A stretch of DNA of 64,000 bases. Source: Olleya namhaensis. Its GTDB lineage: Bacteria > Bacteroidota > Bacteroidia > Flavobacteriales > Flavobacteriaceae. A model generated the notes under the pieces. That model saw nothing but the letters and a program-made list of their open reading frames with translations. It was not told the origin of the DNA and did not search any database. A program made the translations under genes and the position numbers. Positions 14,783-58,439 of this stretch are shown piece by piece (within the stretch, counting starts at the first letter, position 1; the number at the start of each line of letters is the position of its first letter). The DNA is taken from positions 248,001-312,000 of the forward strand of contig NZ_FORM01000002.1 of NCBI RefSeq assembly GCF_900114005.1. Direction: 5' to 3'.

Positions 14783-15865
14783 TTATCCTTTTATAATTTT
14801 TTCTTGATGATTAATAGACTCTTGATGAATAGCCTTAAACATTTTTAAGATAAACTCTTCACTTAGACCTTTAGACTCACCTTCTAAAACCATTTTTCCT
14901 AAAATCTCGTTCCAACGTTTACTTTGTAAAACTGCAACGTTTTTCTGTTTTTTAAGACCTCCTATTCCATCAGCAATTTTCATACGTTTACCTAAAGCTT
15001 CGATAATCTGATTATCCACAACATCAATTTGCGCTCTTAGGTTAGTTAATTCCTGATTGTATTCTGCTTCTGGATCAGATTCTTTTCTAATCTTTAAATC
15101 TACCATCATTTGAATTAAAGATGCAGGTGTTACTTGCTGTGCCGCATCACTCCATGCATTATCAGGATCTGTATGAGTTTCAATCATTAAACCATCAAAA
15201 TTTAAATCTAATGCAGTTTGAGAAACATCAAAAACCATATCACGTTTTCCAGTAATATGCGATGGATCGTTTATTAATGGTAAATCTGGAAATCTGTTTT
15301 GAAACTCAATAGCAATTTGCCATTCTGGAATGTTTCTATACTTCGTTTTTTCGTAAGTAGAAAACCCTCTATGGATTGCTCCTAAGTTTTTAATACCCGC
15401 AGTATATAATCTTTCAATACCACCTAACCATAAGGCTAAATCTGGATTTACTGGATTTTTAACTAATACAATTTTATCTGTTCCTGCCAATGCATCTGCT
15501 AATTCTTGCATGATAAATGGACTAACTGTAGATCGTGCTCCAATCCAAAGTAAGTCAACATCATTTTCTATAGCTAATTTTACGTGTGCCGCATTAGCAA
15601 CTTCTGTACAGGTTTTCATACCTGTTTCTTCTTTTACTTTTTTAAGCCAATTCAAACCTAAAGCACCAACACCTTCAAACATTCCTGGTCTAGTACGTGG
15701 TTTCCATATACCTGCTCTAAAATAGCTAACATCCGTATCTTTTAGCTCGTGCGCTATTTTTAATACTTGCTCTTCTGTCTCTGCACTACATGGTCCAGCG
15801 ATTACTAATGGATGATCTAACTTCATGTCATCCAACCAGTTTCTCATTTCTTTTTTGTTTTCCAT
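14783..15865 (-). CDS. Bifunctional DAHP synthase / chorismate mutase
   Basis: 360 residues. Residues 1-~255 are a class I-beta DAHP synthase barrel: AGPCSAET (20s), GIWKPRTRPGMFEG, VKNPVNPDLALWLGGIERL, LINDPSHITGKRD and MIETHTDPDNAWSDAAQQV. Residues ~265-355 form an AroQ-type chorismate mutase helix bundle (LRAQIDVVDNQIIEALGKRM...LSEEFILKMFKAIHQESINHQ). It therefore supplies both the entry step of the shikimate pathway and the branch to prephenate; in such fusions the mutase domain often serves for feedback by chorismate or prephenate (known of the family). It is the last gene of the pheA operon, 44 bp after tyrA. Confidence 0.95.
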   Translation of the reverse strand: MENKKEMRNWLDDMKLDHPLVIAGPCSAETEEQVLKIAHELKDTDVSYFRAGIWKPRTRPGMFEGVGALGLNWLKKVKEETGMKTCTEVANAAHVKLAIENDVDLLWIGARSTVSPFIMQELADALAGTDKIVLVKNPVNPDLALWLGGIERLYTAGIKNLGAIHRGFSTYEKTKYRNIPEWQIAIEFQNRFPDLPLINDPSHITGKRDMVFDVSQTALDLNFDGLMIETHTDPDNAWSDAAQQVTPASLIQMMVDLKIRKESDPEAEYNQELTNLRAQIDVVDNQIIEALGKRMKIADGIGGLKKQKNVAVLQSKRWNEILGKMVLEGESKGLSEEFILKMFKAIHQESINHQEKIIKG

Positions 15866-15909: not shown

Positions 15910-16764
15910 TTATTGTATTCCGTTTAATATTTGTTTGATGTAATTGGTGTCTTTCATTTCGTTAAAGACACCTTCAAAATCATCGTTTTCTATAAGGTTT
16001 TTAAACTGTGTTAAATTAGCGATGTAATCCTCTAATGTTTCGACTACATTAGTTTTATTCTGTTTAAAAATAGGAGTCCACATAGCGGGACTACTTTTTG
16101 CTAATCTTACTGTACTTTCAAATCCCGAACCCGCCATATCAAAAATATCACGCTCGTTTTTTTCTTTTTCAATGACCGTTTTCCCTAACATAAATGCACT
16201 AATATGTGATAAATGCGACACATAAGCAATATGTTTATCATGAGATTCTGGATTCATATAACGCATACGCATTCCTATTTCCGTAAACAAACCGACTGCT
16301 TTTTCTTGTAGCTTGAAGGCTGTTTTTTCTACTTCGCAAATAATATTTGTCTTTTGATTAAACAAATCTCTGATTGCTGCTTTTGGTCCTGAAAACTCAG
16401 TTCCTGCAATAGGATGCATTGCTAAAAAATTGCGTCGTCTTGGATGGTTCGCTACCACTTTGCAGATATCAGACTTAGTCGAACCAACATCAGCAACTAA
16501 CGTAAAATCTGATATTTTATCAAGCACATCGGGCAAAACACTAACAGAAGCATCCACAGGAATAGCTAATACTACTAAATCTGCCTTATCTAAATCTTCA
16601 AAAGTGGCTTTATGATCAATAACACCAAGCTCTAAAGCTTGATTTATGTGGTCTTCGGATTTATCAATACCATAAACTTTAACTTCAGGACGTTTATTTT
16701 TTATGTCCAAAGCCAAGCTACCGCCAATTAATCCAACACCAATTATGTATATATTTTGTATCAT
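15910..16764 (-). CDS. tyrA: Prephenate dehydrogenase
   Basis: 284 residues from the ATG at 16764. This start gives MIQNIYIIGVGLIGGSLAL, with the Rossmann GxGxxGG at residues 8-14, and overlaps the preceding aminotransferase stop by ATGA; an upstream in-frame start would add 14 residues of no family character. Also visible are the conserved HPIAGTEFSGP segment and SHLSHISAFML. The enzyme oxidatively decarboxylates prephenate to 4-hydroxyphenylpyruvate for tyrosine synthesis. There is no fused mutase: that activity is on the downstream gene. It is the third gene of the attenuator-controlled operon. Confidence 0.94.
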   Translation of the reverse strand: MIQNIYIIGVGLIGGSLALDIKNKRPEVKVYGIDKSEDHINQALELGVIDHKATFEDLDKADLVVLAIPVDASVSVLPDVLDKISDFTLVADVGSTKSDICKVVANHPRRRNFLAMHPIAGTEFSGPKAAIRDLFNQKTNIICEVEKTAFKLQEKAVGLFTEIGMRMRYMNPESHDKHIAYVSHLSHISAFMLGKTVIEKEKNERDIFDMAGSGFESTVRLAKSSPAMWTPIFKQNKTNVVETLEDYIANLTQFKNLIENDDFEGVFNEMKDTNYIKQILNGIQ

Positions 16765-17900
16765 ACTCTTGCTATTGCTTCTTCTATTTGTTCTACTGTT
16801 GCACATAACGAAAATCTTACATACCCTTCGCCTTGTGTTCCAAAAACTGTCCCTGGTGTTATAAATAGACTTTTATCGTGTAACAAAGTATCTATAAATG
16901 TTTCTGATTTGTAACCTTCTGGTGCTTTTGCCCAAACAAATAAACCTGAAGCTTCTTTATCATAGGTACAGTTTAATTTATCTGCTAACTGCCAAACTAA
17001 TTCACGACGTGTTGTGTATACCGTATTTAAACTATCAAACCACTCTTGCGGACTATTTAATGCAGCTATTGCTCCTTTTTGAATCCCGTAAAACATACCA
17101 GAATCCATATTACTTTTTACTTTTAAAATTGCATTTATATGTTCTGGACTTCCTAAAACCATTCCAATTCTCCAACCAGCCATATTAAAAGTTTTACTTA
17201 GAGAATTTAGCTCCAAACAAACATCCTTTGCACCTTCAACATTTAAAATACTTAATGGATTATTATTTAAAATAAAACTATAAGGATTATCATTTACTAG
17301 TAAAATATCATGCTTTTTAGCAAAATCGACTAACTTTTTCAAATCCGTTTTAGACGCTTTAGCACCTGTTGGCATATGCGGATAACTGGTCCACATAATC
17401 TTAACGTTACTTAAATCTAAGGTTTCAATCTCCTCTAAATTAGGCAACCAATTATTGCTTTGATCTAAATTATAAGTGATAGGATTAGCTTGCACTAATT
17501 TAGTCACAGCTGCATACGTTGGATATCCTGGATTAGGAATTAATACGCTATCACCTTCATTTAAAAAAGCCATAGATATATGCATAATTCCCTCTTTGCT
17601 TCCCATTAATGGTAACACTTCTGCATCTGGATTAATTGATACGTTATAATGTGCTTTATAAAAATCCGCAATAGCTTGCCTAAACTCTGGTAAGCCTTGA
17701 TAACTTTGATACTTATGCGCATTAGCATCTAACAAACCTGCTGTTAACGCTGCAACAACTTGTTTTGATGGTTGTAAATCTGGGCTTCCAATTCCTAAAT
17801 TAATGATAGGTTTTCCTGCTGCTTTTAAAGCATTGACCTCCTTTAATTTTTTAGAAAAGTAGTATTCCTCTACACTATGTAATCTATTAGCTACTTTCAT
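16761..17900 (-). CDS. Class I/II PLP aminotransferase (aromatic operon)
   Basis: 379 residues with fold-type I landmarks: GIGSPDLQPS near the N terminus, NPGYPTY, DNPYSFIL (PLP-binding Asp/Tyr region) and NSLSKTFNMAGWRIGM with the Schiff-base Lys. Its place between pheA and tyrA argues that it transaminates phenylpyruvate and 4-hydroxyphenylpyruvate to Phe and Tyr, but specificity cannot be read from sequence. It is translationally coupled on both sides: TAATG with pheA upstream and ATGA with tyrA downstream. Confidence 0.9.
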   Translation of the reverse strand: MKVANRLHSVEEYYFSKKLKEVNALKAAGKPIINLGIGSPDLQPSKQVVAALTAGLLDANAHKYQSYQGLPEFRQAIADFYKAHYNVSINPDAEVLPLMGSKEGIMHISMAFLNEGDSVLIPNPGYPTYAAVTKLVQANPITYNLDQSNNWLPNLEEIETLDLSNVKIMWTSYPHMPTGAKASKTDLKKLVDFAKKHDILLVNDNPYSFILNNNPLSILNVEGAKDVCLELNSLSKTFNMAGWRIGMVLGSPEHINAILKVKSNMDSGMFYGIQKGAIAALNSPQEWFDSLNTVYTTRRELVWQLADKLNCTYDKEASGLFVWAKAPEGYKSETFIDTLLHDKSLFITPGTVFGTQGEGYVRFSLCATVEQIEEAIARV

Positions 17901-18727
17901 TATATTTTCGCATTTTTATATTGACCAATAACCTTAAAATGTGTGGCCATAATATCCATTATAGATTTGGCTTTTTTAAAATCTTGATAATCCTGAAATG
18001 TAACATCTACAAAAAAGGCATATTTCCAAGGAGTTTCAATTATTGGTAAAGACTGTATTTTTGTTAAGTTTAATTTGCAATCACTCATAACATTCAAAAT
18101 GGTTGCTAAACTTCCTCTTTTATGATCTAATTCAAATTTGATAGATGCTTTATTTATTTCCGCTTCAGCGATTTCAGAATTATCTTCTTTTACAATAACA
18201 AAACGGGTTTCGTTATGCTTAATCGTCTGAATACTTTTTGCTAAAATATCTAACTCAAATATCTCTGCAGCTAAAGCACTAGCAATAGCCCCAGTATTTT
18301 TTAATTGTTTTTTATGGATACGCTCCGCAACCTCAGCAGTATCCTTATCTTCTATAAGTTTAATATGAGGATATTGTTTAAAAAAGGCTTTACATTGTAA
18401 CAACGCCATAGGATGAGAATACACTTCTGTAATGTCCTCTATCTTTTGATTGGGAAGCGCCATTAAATTATGCTGAATATCCAAATAATACTCGCCAACA
18501 ATGTGCAAATTATTAGCATCTATTAATGCGTAATTAGGAATAATAGAACCTGCAATTGAATTCTCAATAGCCATTATAGCTGCATCCGTCTCCTTTTTAA
18601 GAACACTATCTACCGTTTGATCAAAAGACATAAATGGCGCTATACTAACAGGAGTCTTAAAATAATTTTGAGACACAATGTGATGAAACGATCCTTTTAT
18701 ACCTTGTATGGCTACTGATTTTATCAA
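17900..18727 (-). CDS. pheA: Prephenate dehydratase with ACT domain
   Basis: 275 residues. The catalytic domain (~1-180) shows AIQGIKGSFHHIV, AIMAIENSIAGSI and the essential TRF motif in HNETRFVIVKE. A C-terminal ACT domain (~193-275; GSLATILNVMSDCKLNLTKIQSLP) is the usual Phe-sensing module, which gives allosteric inhibition in characterised relatives. It is monofunctional, without a mutase. First structural gene of the operon pheA-aminotransferase-tyrA-DAHPS/CM; transcription must pass the leader terminator at 18785-18820 to reach it. Confidence 0.95.
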   Translation of the reverse strand: MIKSVAIQGIKGSFHHIVSQNYFKTPVSIAPFMSFDQTVDSVLKKETDAAIMAIENSIAGSIIPNYALIDANNLHIVGEYYLDIQHNLMALPNQKIEDITEVYSHPMALLQCKAFFKQYPHIKLIEDKDTAEVAERIHKKQLKNTGAIASALAAEIFELDILAKSIQTIKHNETRFVIVKEDNSEIAEAEINKASIKFELDHKRGSLATILNVMSDCKLNLTKIQSLPIIETPWKYAFFVDVTFQDYQDFKKAKSIMDIMATHFKVIGQYKNAKI

Positions 18728-18784: not shown

Positions 18785-18820
18785 AAACAAAAAAAGTCTC
18801 GATATATATCGAGACTTTTT
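18785..18820 (-). terminator. Attenuator terminator of the pheA operon
   Basis: The perfect palindrome AAAAAGTCTCGATATATATCGAGACTTTTT lies at 18791-18820. On the minus strand it is followed by TTTTTTTGTTTTT. It sits between the leader peptide gene and pheA, i.e. in the transcribed leader of the operon it would block, and not at an operon end. Its 5' arm (GTCTCG, 18810-18815) can pair instead with CGAGAC in the leader (18854-18859). Confidence 0.9.
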
Positions 18821-18859
18821 AAAAAATATATGTTGTAAAATTACATATACAGTGTCTCG
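18810..18859 (-). promoter_or_regulatory. Antiterminator of the pheA-operon attenuator
   Basis: Read in the RNA sense, CGAGAC (18859-18854) pairs with GTCTCG (18815-18810). Inside it TATATGT pairs with ACATATA, giving a two-part stem that uses up the 5' arm of the terminator. The two structures are therefore mutually exclusive. The 5' part overlaps the end of the leader peptide frame. A further pairing of ACATAT (leader codons 7-8) with ATATGT could free the terminator when the ribosome does not stall. Confidence 0.8.
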
Positions 18860-18918
18860 TTCCTTTTGTTAAAAAAGAAATAATACCAGCTGAAATATGT
18901 AGTGTTTATTGTGCTCAT
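18841..18918 (-). CDS. Aromatic-rich leader peptide of the pheA operon attenuator
   Basis: A 25-codon frame (ATG at 18918-18916, TAA at 18843-18841) contains the run YFSWYYFFF at codons 8-16. In total it has 4 Tyr, 4 Phe and 1 Trp, so 9 of 25 residues are aromatic. It ends 20 bp before a strong terminator that precedes pheA. This is the organisation of classical trp/phe-type attenuators: a ribosome stalled for lack of charged tRNA-Phe or tRNA-Tyr over codons 8-16 would leave the antiterminator free to form. The frame is too short for normal gene callers. Translation has not been shown; the composition and placement make chance unlikely. Confidence 0.85.
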   Translation of the reverse strand: MSTINTTYFSWYYFFFNKRNETLYM

Positions 18919-18934
18919 GTTTGTAATAATACTG

Positions 18935-18965
18935 CTAAAGTAAATAATAAAATGATATAACAAAA
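18935..18965 (-). promoter_or_regulatory. Promoter of the pheA-operon leader
   Basis: On the minus strand, TTTTG (18965-18961), an 18-bp spacer and TACTTTAG (18942-18935) match the Bacteroidetes TTTG/TAnnTTTG promoter in all but one position. The predicted transcript starts shortly before the leader-peptide ATG. The rest of the 341-bp gap up to gldA holds only the divergent gldA -7 box. Confidence 0.65.
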
Positions 18966-38284: not shown

Positions 38285-38290
38285 ATTTGA

Positions 38291-38409
38291 GTTATCTATC
38301 CAATGTTTCGATTAATGAATCGAAAATTAAGTAGAATTTAGCACCTTCTTAGTAAGTCTAAGGGTTGCTAAGGCTTCAGCGAGTCTATCTCTCCACCTTT
38401 CTTGATAAC
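38291..38409 (-). ncRNA. SAM-I (S-box) riboswitch upstream of metY
   Basis: The minus strand reads GTTATC AAGAAAGGTGGAGAG, GCTGAAGCCTTAGCAACC and AAGGTGCTAAATTC, the S-box core in its proper order, then a perfect P4 hairpin (TTTCGATT/AATCGAAA) and the closing GATAAC that pairs with the initial GTTATC (P1). It is 122 bp from the metY start, with a candidate terminator in between. Binding of S-adenosylmethionine is expected to switch the downstream metY-metX-metZ-rhodanese-metH-metF genes off. Confidence 0.93.
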
Positions 38410-38573
38410 ATTTCAGTAAGTTTTTGAACTTTGTGAATACAAATATTGCAAAATATATTGTTTACAAACAAACAAAACAGAATATTTTTCCGAATAATTA
38501 ACAAATAATTAATTAAACAGAAAATAATTCTTAATAATGCGATTTAAACAGAATAAAAAACTAACAAAAACAA

Positions 38574-41452: not shown

Positions 41453-41467
41453 CACCTCAATAAATTT

Positions 41468-41520
41468 AGAGGACGGATTTGACTGATTGCAACCTCATTA
41501 AAAAATGCTAAAGGCAGTGT
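41468..41520 (+). ncRNA. SAM-II-type riboswitch upstream of metK
   Basis: AGAGG pairs with CCTC around a loop containing GGATTTGACTGATTGCAA, followed by AAAAAATGCTAAAGGCAGT. The conserved SAM-II blocks GAUUU..., UUGCAA and GCUAAA-AGG appear in the right order, and ACTG of the loop can pair with CAGT to form the pseudoknot. It lies between the -7 box and metK. The 3' element is 55 bp from the metK start, so direct ribosome-site masking, as in alphaproteobacterial examples, is not obvious here. Confidence 0.78.
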
Positions 41521-41574
41521 AAACTTCCTTAGACGCTTTCGTCAAATCTATTATATACATTTTAAAAAACAAAT

Positions 41575-56191: not shown

Positions 56192-56271
56192 GGCGTTACC
56201 CAAGGGTCGGGCTTTCCGTTATATCTTTTTTGAAAAAAGACAAAAAAGGATGCCTCTACAATCCCTAACGC
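56192..56271 (+). repeat. Dispersed intergenic element, copy 3
   Basis: It begins GGCGTTACCCAAGGGTCGGG and ends CCCTAACGC, with an internal palindrome (ATCTTTTTTG...CAAAAAAGGAT). It starts 10 bp after the fba stop and ends before the fba terminator. Together with copies 1 and 2 it defines the family: conserved head, variable middle, inverted tail. Confidence 0.85.
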
Positions 56272-56295
56272 GTGCCAACATAATTACATAAAATA

Positions 56296-58085: not shown

Positions 58086-58115
58086 TTTGTTATTTAATAA
58101 AAATAACTATATTTG
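58086..58115 (+). promoter_or_regulatory. rpsO promoter
   Basis: TTTG (58086-58089), an 18-bp spacer and TATATTTG (58108-58115): a complete consensus promoter 54 bp before the rpsO ATG. Confidence 0.7.
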
Positions 58116-58169
58116 CACCTCGAAAGATAAACTTTCGTATACATAACAATCATTTACAATAATATTAGA

Positions 58170-58439
58170 ATGTACATCACAAAAGAAGCAAAAGCAGAGA
58201 TTTTTGCAAAACACGGTAAAGACGCTAAAGATACTGGATCTGCAGAAGGTCAAATAGCATTATTCACAGCTAGAATTTCACACTTAACTGAGCACTTAAA
58301 ACAAAATCGTAAAGATTATAACACAGAGCGTTCTTTAGTAATGTTAGTAGGTAAAAGAAGAAGCTTACTTGATTACTTAATTAAGAAAGATGTCTTAAGA
58401 TATCGTGCAATAGTAAAAGAATTAGGATTAAGAAAATAA
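58170..58439 (+). CDS. rpsO: 30S ribosomal protein S15
   Basis: 89 residues, exact family length. TGSAEGQIALFTARISHLTEHLKQNRKDYNTERSLVMLVGKRRSLLDYLIKKD is the S15 signature covering the 16S rRNA three-way-junction contacts. S15 is a primary binder of the 30S platform. rpsO-pnp order is the same as in E. coli; here a terminator separates them, so read-through or a second promoter must serve pnp. Confidence 0.98.
   Translation: MYITKEAKAEIFAKHGKDAKDTGSAEGQIALFTARISHLTEHLKQNRKDYNTERSLVMLVGKRRSLLDYLIKKDVLRYRAIVKELGLRK

Follow-up and report, generated by a model that had tools for sequence, protein, structure and literature searches.

The pheA operon and its leader

The window, which is the whole 64,000-nucleotide stretch of Olleya namhaensis DNA analysed here, carries on its minus strand a run of four genes of phenylalanine and tyrosine synthesis. 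The first is pheA, encoding prephenate dehydratase (positions 17900 to 18727; PF00800), whose TTG start was assigned from an alignment of starts. Many relatives likewise have TTG at this site (18727 in the window), and others have ATG. Next come a class I/II aminotransferase gene (16761 to 17900; PF00155), tyrA for prephenate dehydrogenase (15910 to 16806; PF02153/PF20463), the true start of which is probably near 16761, and a gene for a DAHP synthase fused to a chorismate mutase (14783 to 15865; PF00793 and PF01817). The initial annotation, made from the letters alone, had read these genes as a pheA-aminotransferase-tyrA-DAHP synthase operon, and the Pfam domains bear out each gene.

Upstream of pheA and on the same strand, a predicted promoter of the Bacteroidetes −33/−7 type (18935 to 18964) consists of TTTG at 18964-18961, an 18-nt spacer and TACTTTAG at 18942-18935. 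It is followed by a leader peptide ORF of 25 codons (18841 to 18918; ATG at 18918, TAA at 18841) with the sequence MSTINTTYFSWYYFFFNKRNETLYM. The predicted stall site is its Tyr-Tyr-Phe-Phe-Phe codon run (18871 to 18885), at whose positions nearly all relatives carry Phe or Tyr; the final aromatic codon ends at 18871. The terminator AAAAAGTCTCGATATATATCGAGACTTTTT (18820-18791) comprises 13 bp, a 4-nt loop and a subsequent T-run. Promoter, frame and terminator thus lie on the minus strand as the initial annotation had placed them.

The transcript can be divided into four regions. Region 1 (TACATAT, 18895 to 18901) pairs with ATATGTA at 18848-18842, within region 2 (18842 to 18859). The initial annotation had described this 1:2 hairpin as ACATAT/ATATGT; the pairing is present, but it is 7 bp long rather than 6. 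Region 2 also contains the antiterminator stretches CGAGAC (18859-18854) and TATATGT (18849-18843). Their partners lie in region 3 (18808 to 18833), which is made up of ACATATA (18833-18827) and the 5′ arm of the terminator (18820-18808, including GTCTCG at 18815-18810). Region 4 (18785 to 18803) holds the 3′ arm of the terminator (18803-18791) and the U-run. Region 3 can therefore pair with region 2 or with region 4, and both helices show compensatory changes; the antiterminator proposed in the initial annotation is present and covaries in relatives. Computed energies were −14.9 kcal/mol for the terminator, −10.2 kcal/mol for the antiterminator and −12.4 kcal/mol for the 1:2 hairpin, and the minimum-energy fold of the whole leader combines 1:2 with 3:4.

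Conservation and codon use of the leader

We analyzed the conservation of the leader across Flavobacteriaceae. pheA was detected in 178 of 199 genomes, and upstream DNA was examined for 110 of them, all from different genera except for a second genome from the window's own genus. In 109 of the 110 loci, pheA is preceded by a short aromatic ORF and, after it, a terminator; at the lone exception (L105/L162), pheA lacks the other operon genes within the 7 kb fetched. An ORF with at least 30% aromatic residues occurred in 97% of these 109 relatives, compared with 2.4% of shuffled upstream sequences. A second collection of 80 named relatives, including Flavobacterium, Tenacibaculum, Psychroserpens, Maribacter, Winogradskyella, Kordia and Gelidibacter, yielded an aromatic leader in every case (80/80, with the ORFs of L233 and L238 assigned by hand). 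A −7 element matching TAnnTT[A/T/C]G lay no more than 38 nt from the leader ATG in 168 of 189 relatives, as against 4% of shuffles, and across the 189 loci it was mostly 10-20 nt upstream of the ATG. Because the −7 element is so close to the ATG, the untranslated 5′ part of the leader would be very short. A Shine-Dalgarno-like motif before the leader ATG was found in only 1 of the 189 loci.

The pattern of nucleotide change in the leader follows its reading frame. Differences between nearest-neighbour leaders at codon positions 1, 2 and 3 numbered 168, 266 and 326, respectively. Among single changes, 164 were synonymous and 191 nonsynonymous, which corresponds to 46% synonymous compared with 17% expected by chance, with transition bias uncorrected. 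The last five codons accounted for 51 synonymous changes, and 39 of their 48 amino-acid changes were exchanges between Phe and Tyr. Judged by this codon-level evolution, the leader frame is translated. Leader length (16-29 amino acids), the N-terminus and the position of the stop codon vary among relatives; the final codons encode Phe or Tyr in nearly all 163 distinct leaders, and the ending YFFF is highly conserved across most genera.

On average, a leader contains 5.3 Phe, 3.6 Tyr and 0.6 Trp. The window leader has a single Trp codon, and Trp is missing from 64 of the 163 distinct leaders. Since Trp is optional while Phe and Tyr interchange freely, Phe and Tyr rather than Trp are the likely signal. 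The initial annotation had counted Tyr, Phe and Trp among the stall codons; the Phe and Tyr codons are indeed conserved, whereas Trp is dispensable. The codon composition suggests that Phe and Tyr, the two end products of the operon, are most likely what the sensor reads. Counting back from the end of the aromatic run, the third codon, a Phe codon, is TTC in 127 leaders and TTT in 9, and the neighbouring Phe codons are mostly TTT; this preference perhaps serves to break up a long U-run.

Outside the family, an aromatic leader and terminator directly preceded pheA in 21 of 40 loci from other families of the order and class, representing 15 of 23 families. By our automatic criteria, such a pair was absent directly before pheA in the remaining 19 loci, of which six carry a different type of PheA and two carry the leader before a new first gene. 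The latter are two genomes of family f8 (L280 and L281), in which DAHP synthase comes first in the cluster and pheA fourth, with two intervening genes that look like aroB and aroA; here, an aromatic leader beginning MLITAAIYFTFFYFYF and its terminator precede DAHP synthase instead of pheA. The six loci with a different PheA (KIAFLGP type) belong to family f2 and have no leader, and in both f2 loci whose surroundings were examined, pheA lies outside such an operon. The comparison speaks for an ancient device, spread through the class, that tracks the head of the operon. Three loci (L131, L152 and L154) appear to have two aromatic leaders in tandem before pheA, each with its own terminator, an arrangement that suggests doubled attenuators.

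The initial annotation had proposed aligning relatives to look for conservation of the frame, its aromatic codons and the alternative stems. All of these, including the three stems with their compensatory changes, proved to be conserved in the family and beyond.

Alternative helices, ribosome spacing and proposed mechanism

To assess covariation, 63 sequences were aligned with MAFFT without reference to structure. In the core of the antiterminator (2:3), 94.2% of cells were paired and 26 were double-changed; in the terminator (3:4), 98.8% were paired and 27 were double-changed. For neither helix did any of 500 shuffles score as high, and shifting the partner by one base lowered pairing to 37-61%. 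Single positions change jointly on all three strands, for example from G-C-G to A-T-A. As kinship inflates such shuffle tests, we built a PheA tree and took path-disjoint leaf pairs. Among pairs with differing terminator arms, pairing was better with a sequence's own arms in 10 and with swapped arms in 1, and 2 were tied (10 of 11 informative pairs, sign test p = 0.006). About ten of the 109 loci, such as L034 and L087, show weak pairing between regions 2 and 3.

For the 1:2 hairpin, complementarity of own compared with permuted partners gave z = 16, a value uncorrected for kinship. Its arms read ATTATACATAT/GTATGTATAAT in an Algibacter-like group, AATAACCGT/ATGGTTATT in Flavobacterium and AACGGTTTT/GGGACTGTT in a Maribacter-like group, so that the hairpin changes as a unit across clades. 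Outside the family, the loci with leader and terminator have arm sequences (GACCGCTC/GAGCGGTC and AAATCCCGCTC/GAGCGGGATTT) unlike those of Flavobacteriaceae, yet these remain complementary to region 2, and 0 of 10,000 permutations did as well. By the measure of covariation, the alternative helices are real.

We then considered where region 2 lies relative to the aromatic codons. By the textbook footprint, a ribosome decoding the final aromatic codon in the A site shields some 10 nt further downstream. In 146 of 189 loci, region 2 begins 9-11 nt past the final aromatic codon (11 nt in the window), and given this footprint, a waiting ribosome would leave region 2 just free, while an advancing one would cover it. 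Measured from the stop codon, region 2 falls anywhere between −26 and +6 nt, apart from a single outlier. The spacing of region 2 is, in our view, the strongest sequence-level argument that ribosome stalling may act as the switch. In several loci (L028, L040, L179, L180, L185, L186, L211, L213 and others) the stop codon follows the aromatic run immediately and precedes region 2, yet the spacing between region 2 and the aromatic codons is retained.

The locus thus combines the features of attenuators of the trp/phe/his type: a run of end-product codons in a short ORF and an intrinsic terminator before the first gene, as seen in sequence and covariation; an exclusive antiterminator and a 1:2 hairpin, as seen in pairing and covariation; and the spacing of the stall codons. 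Very probably, it controls transcription by ribosome-mediated attenuation of the trp/phe type, with charged tRNA-Phe and tRNA-Tyr as the species sensed. From the parts, the conservation of codons and helices and the geometry, we infer stalling, termination and the physiological signal as follows. RNA synthesis would begin just upstream of the leader ORF, onto which a ribosome loads. With ample Phe and Tyr, the ribosome would reach the stop codon and occupy region 2, allowing regions 3 and 4 to form the terminator, and RNA polymerase would halt near 18785. When Phe or Tyr is scarce, the ribosome would pause on the aromatic codons, its leading edge stopping just before region 2; the freed region 2 would pair with region 3 and block the terminator, and pheA, the aminotransferase gene, tyrA and the DAHP synthase gene would be transcribed. 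In a leader that is untranslated, the 1:2 hairpin would sequester region 2, which would make termination the default.

Other explanations account for part of these observations. The conserved YFFF ending in most genera would suit a nascent peptide that, like TnaC, senses free Phe or Tyr and arrests the ribosome, as opposed to sensing tRNA codon by codon. Arrest peptides keep exact residues, however, whereas here Phe and Tyr swap and the N-terminus, length and stop vary as described above; moreover, arrest at high amino-acid levels would flip a biosynthetic operon in the wrong direction. We therefore consider this reading very unlikely. Still smaller is the probability that the hairpin acts on translation by hiding the pheA start, with the transcripts not being terminated. 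In many relatives the hairpin does end 5-10 nt before pheA, and some translational effect is possible there for that reason, but the gap between hairpin and pheA varies between 5 and 411 nt (median 26), a U-run (median 9 nt) follows as intrinsic terminators need, and in the f8 genomes the hairpin precedes a different gene.

The choice between terminator and antiterminator could also be set by another factor, be it an RNA-binding protein, T-box-like tRNA binding or a riboswitch, with the ORF being incidental; alternative helices by themselves are no proof of control by a ribosome. Against this stand the conservation of Phe and Tyr at the codon level and the placement of region 2 by the aromatic codons instead of the stop, and no Rfam riboswitch or T-box reached its gathering score on the leader of the window or of 20 relatives, which leaves this explanation highly improbable. 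Chance would require a Phe/Tyr-rich frame and an ordinary terminator to have met in AT-rich DNA. An equally aromatic short ORF, taken alone, does arise in 1.3% of Markov shuffles of the window's upstream sequence, but conservation and covariation over about 190 loci refute coincidence, and we assign it a negligible probability. Attenuation by a ribosome at the Phe and Tyr codons is the reading we retain; since the device is kept in nearly all of the family and in many families of the class, we regard the attenuator as real.

Relation to known elements and implications

The E. coli pheA leader, pheL, encodes a Phe-rich peptide and uses 1:2/2:3/3:4 logic upstream of pheA. The present leader resembles it in these three respects. 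It differs in that its operon includes DAHP synthase alongside the genes of both the Phe and the Tyr branch, Tyr codons form part of the run, no Shine-Dalgarno motif is present and the start lies about 10-20 nt past the −7 element.

A covariance model built from the leader gave one strong match in the genome, at 85 bits, the next being at 43. Weaker matches, of at most about 43-47 bits, in this genome and across the class were ordinary 3′ terminators, not leaders, where examined. An Rfam scan of the leader, in the window and in 20 relatives, returned no family at gathering score; as all matches were sub-threshold, the leader is not a Bacteroid-trp element, a T-box or a riboswitch. The Bacteroid-trp leader (RF01692; Weinberg et al. 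2010, PMC2864571) is similar in having a short ORF with a run of product-amino-acid codons and a terminator in the same phylum, and differs in its Trp codons and trp genes. Membership in this family was rejected: the pheA leader reaches 24.2 bits where 49 are required, it has no run of Trp codons, and its operon serves the Phe/Tyr branch, not trp. The same genome contains a true RF01692 copy with the Trp leader MNTILNHTWWWNSRNSNFVN before trpE (C12:136559-136682, L111; 55 bits).

The initial annotation had known of no description of such a leader in Flavobacteriaceae. In the literature we searched, which covered few subscription journals, no paper was found on the leader peptide, its spread or its codon logic in Bacteroidetes, although Lopatovskaya et al. 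2010 (cited in PMC4833913) may treat it. The novelty is narrowed by RF01692, already known in Bacteroidetes, and by a putative attenuator before the pheA operon of B. thetaiotaomicron, given in 2005 in Table 7 of PMC1173090 after the Merino list of predictions. That attenuator matches the present one in operon type and class and is probably the same element; the table entry gives a predicted attenuator only, with no leader peptide, conservation or mechanism. In Flavobacterium psychrophilum, a transcription-start map led to the suspicion of leader-peptide attenuation for amino-acid operons that the main text leaves unnamed (PMC9723704); these clues concern the same family as the present leader and likewise amino-acid operons.

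We regard the element, on the comparative evidence, as an Rfam-unlisted and well-supported addition to the known trp/phe-type attenuators. We also lean, with little more than even confidence, towards a wider reading: an unnamed, class-wide family of Phe/Tyr attenuators in Bacteroidia that sense either amino acid from an ORF that lacks a Shine-Dalgarno motif and starts almost at the RNA's 5′ end, and in which the ribosome-edge spacing was kept while the helix sequences turned over. About 190 sequences are available for building an Rfam family, and the element suggests a mode of control for Phe and Tyr synthesis in a large class found in the environment and the gut.

Leader-peptide attenuation requires a ribosome that keeps pace with RNA polymerase. 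If true, a class-wide family would mean kinetic coupling between RNA polymerase and the first ribosome in Bacteroidota, a question on which the literature searched held no settled answer. A conserved attenuator with ribosome-edge spacing would indicate coupling at least at this locus, and offers a ready reporter with which to measure it. In Firmicutes, transcription reportedly runs ahead of translation, and attenuators of this type are reported to see less use; Bacteroidota are unmentioned there (PMC10953045).

Elsewhere in the window, Rfam matched a SAM riboswitch (38289-38411, minus strand), a SAM-II riboswitch (41463-41521, plus strand), a Flavo-1 RNA (56201-56280, minus strand) and an S15-Flavobacteria leader (58108-58172, plus strand).
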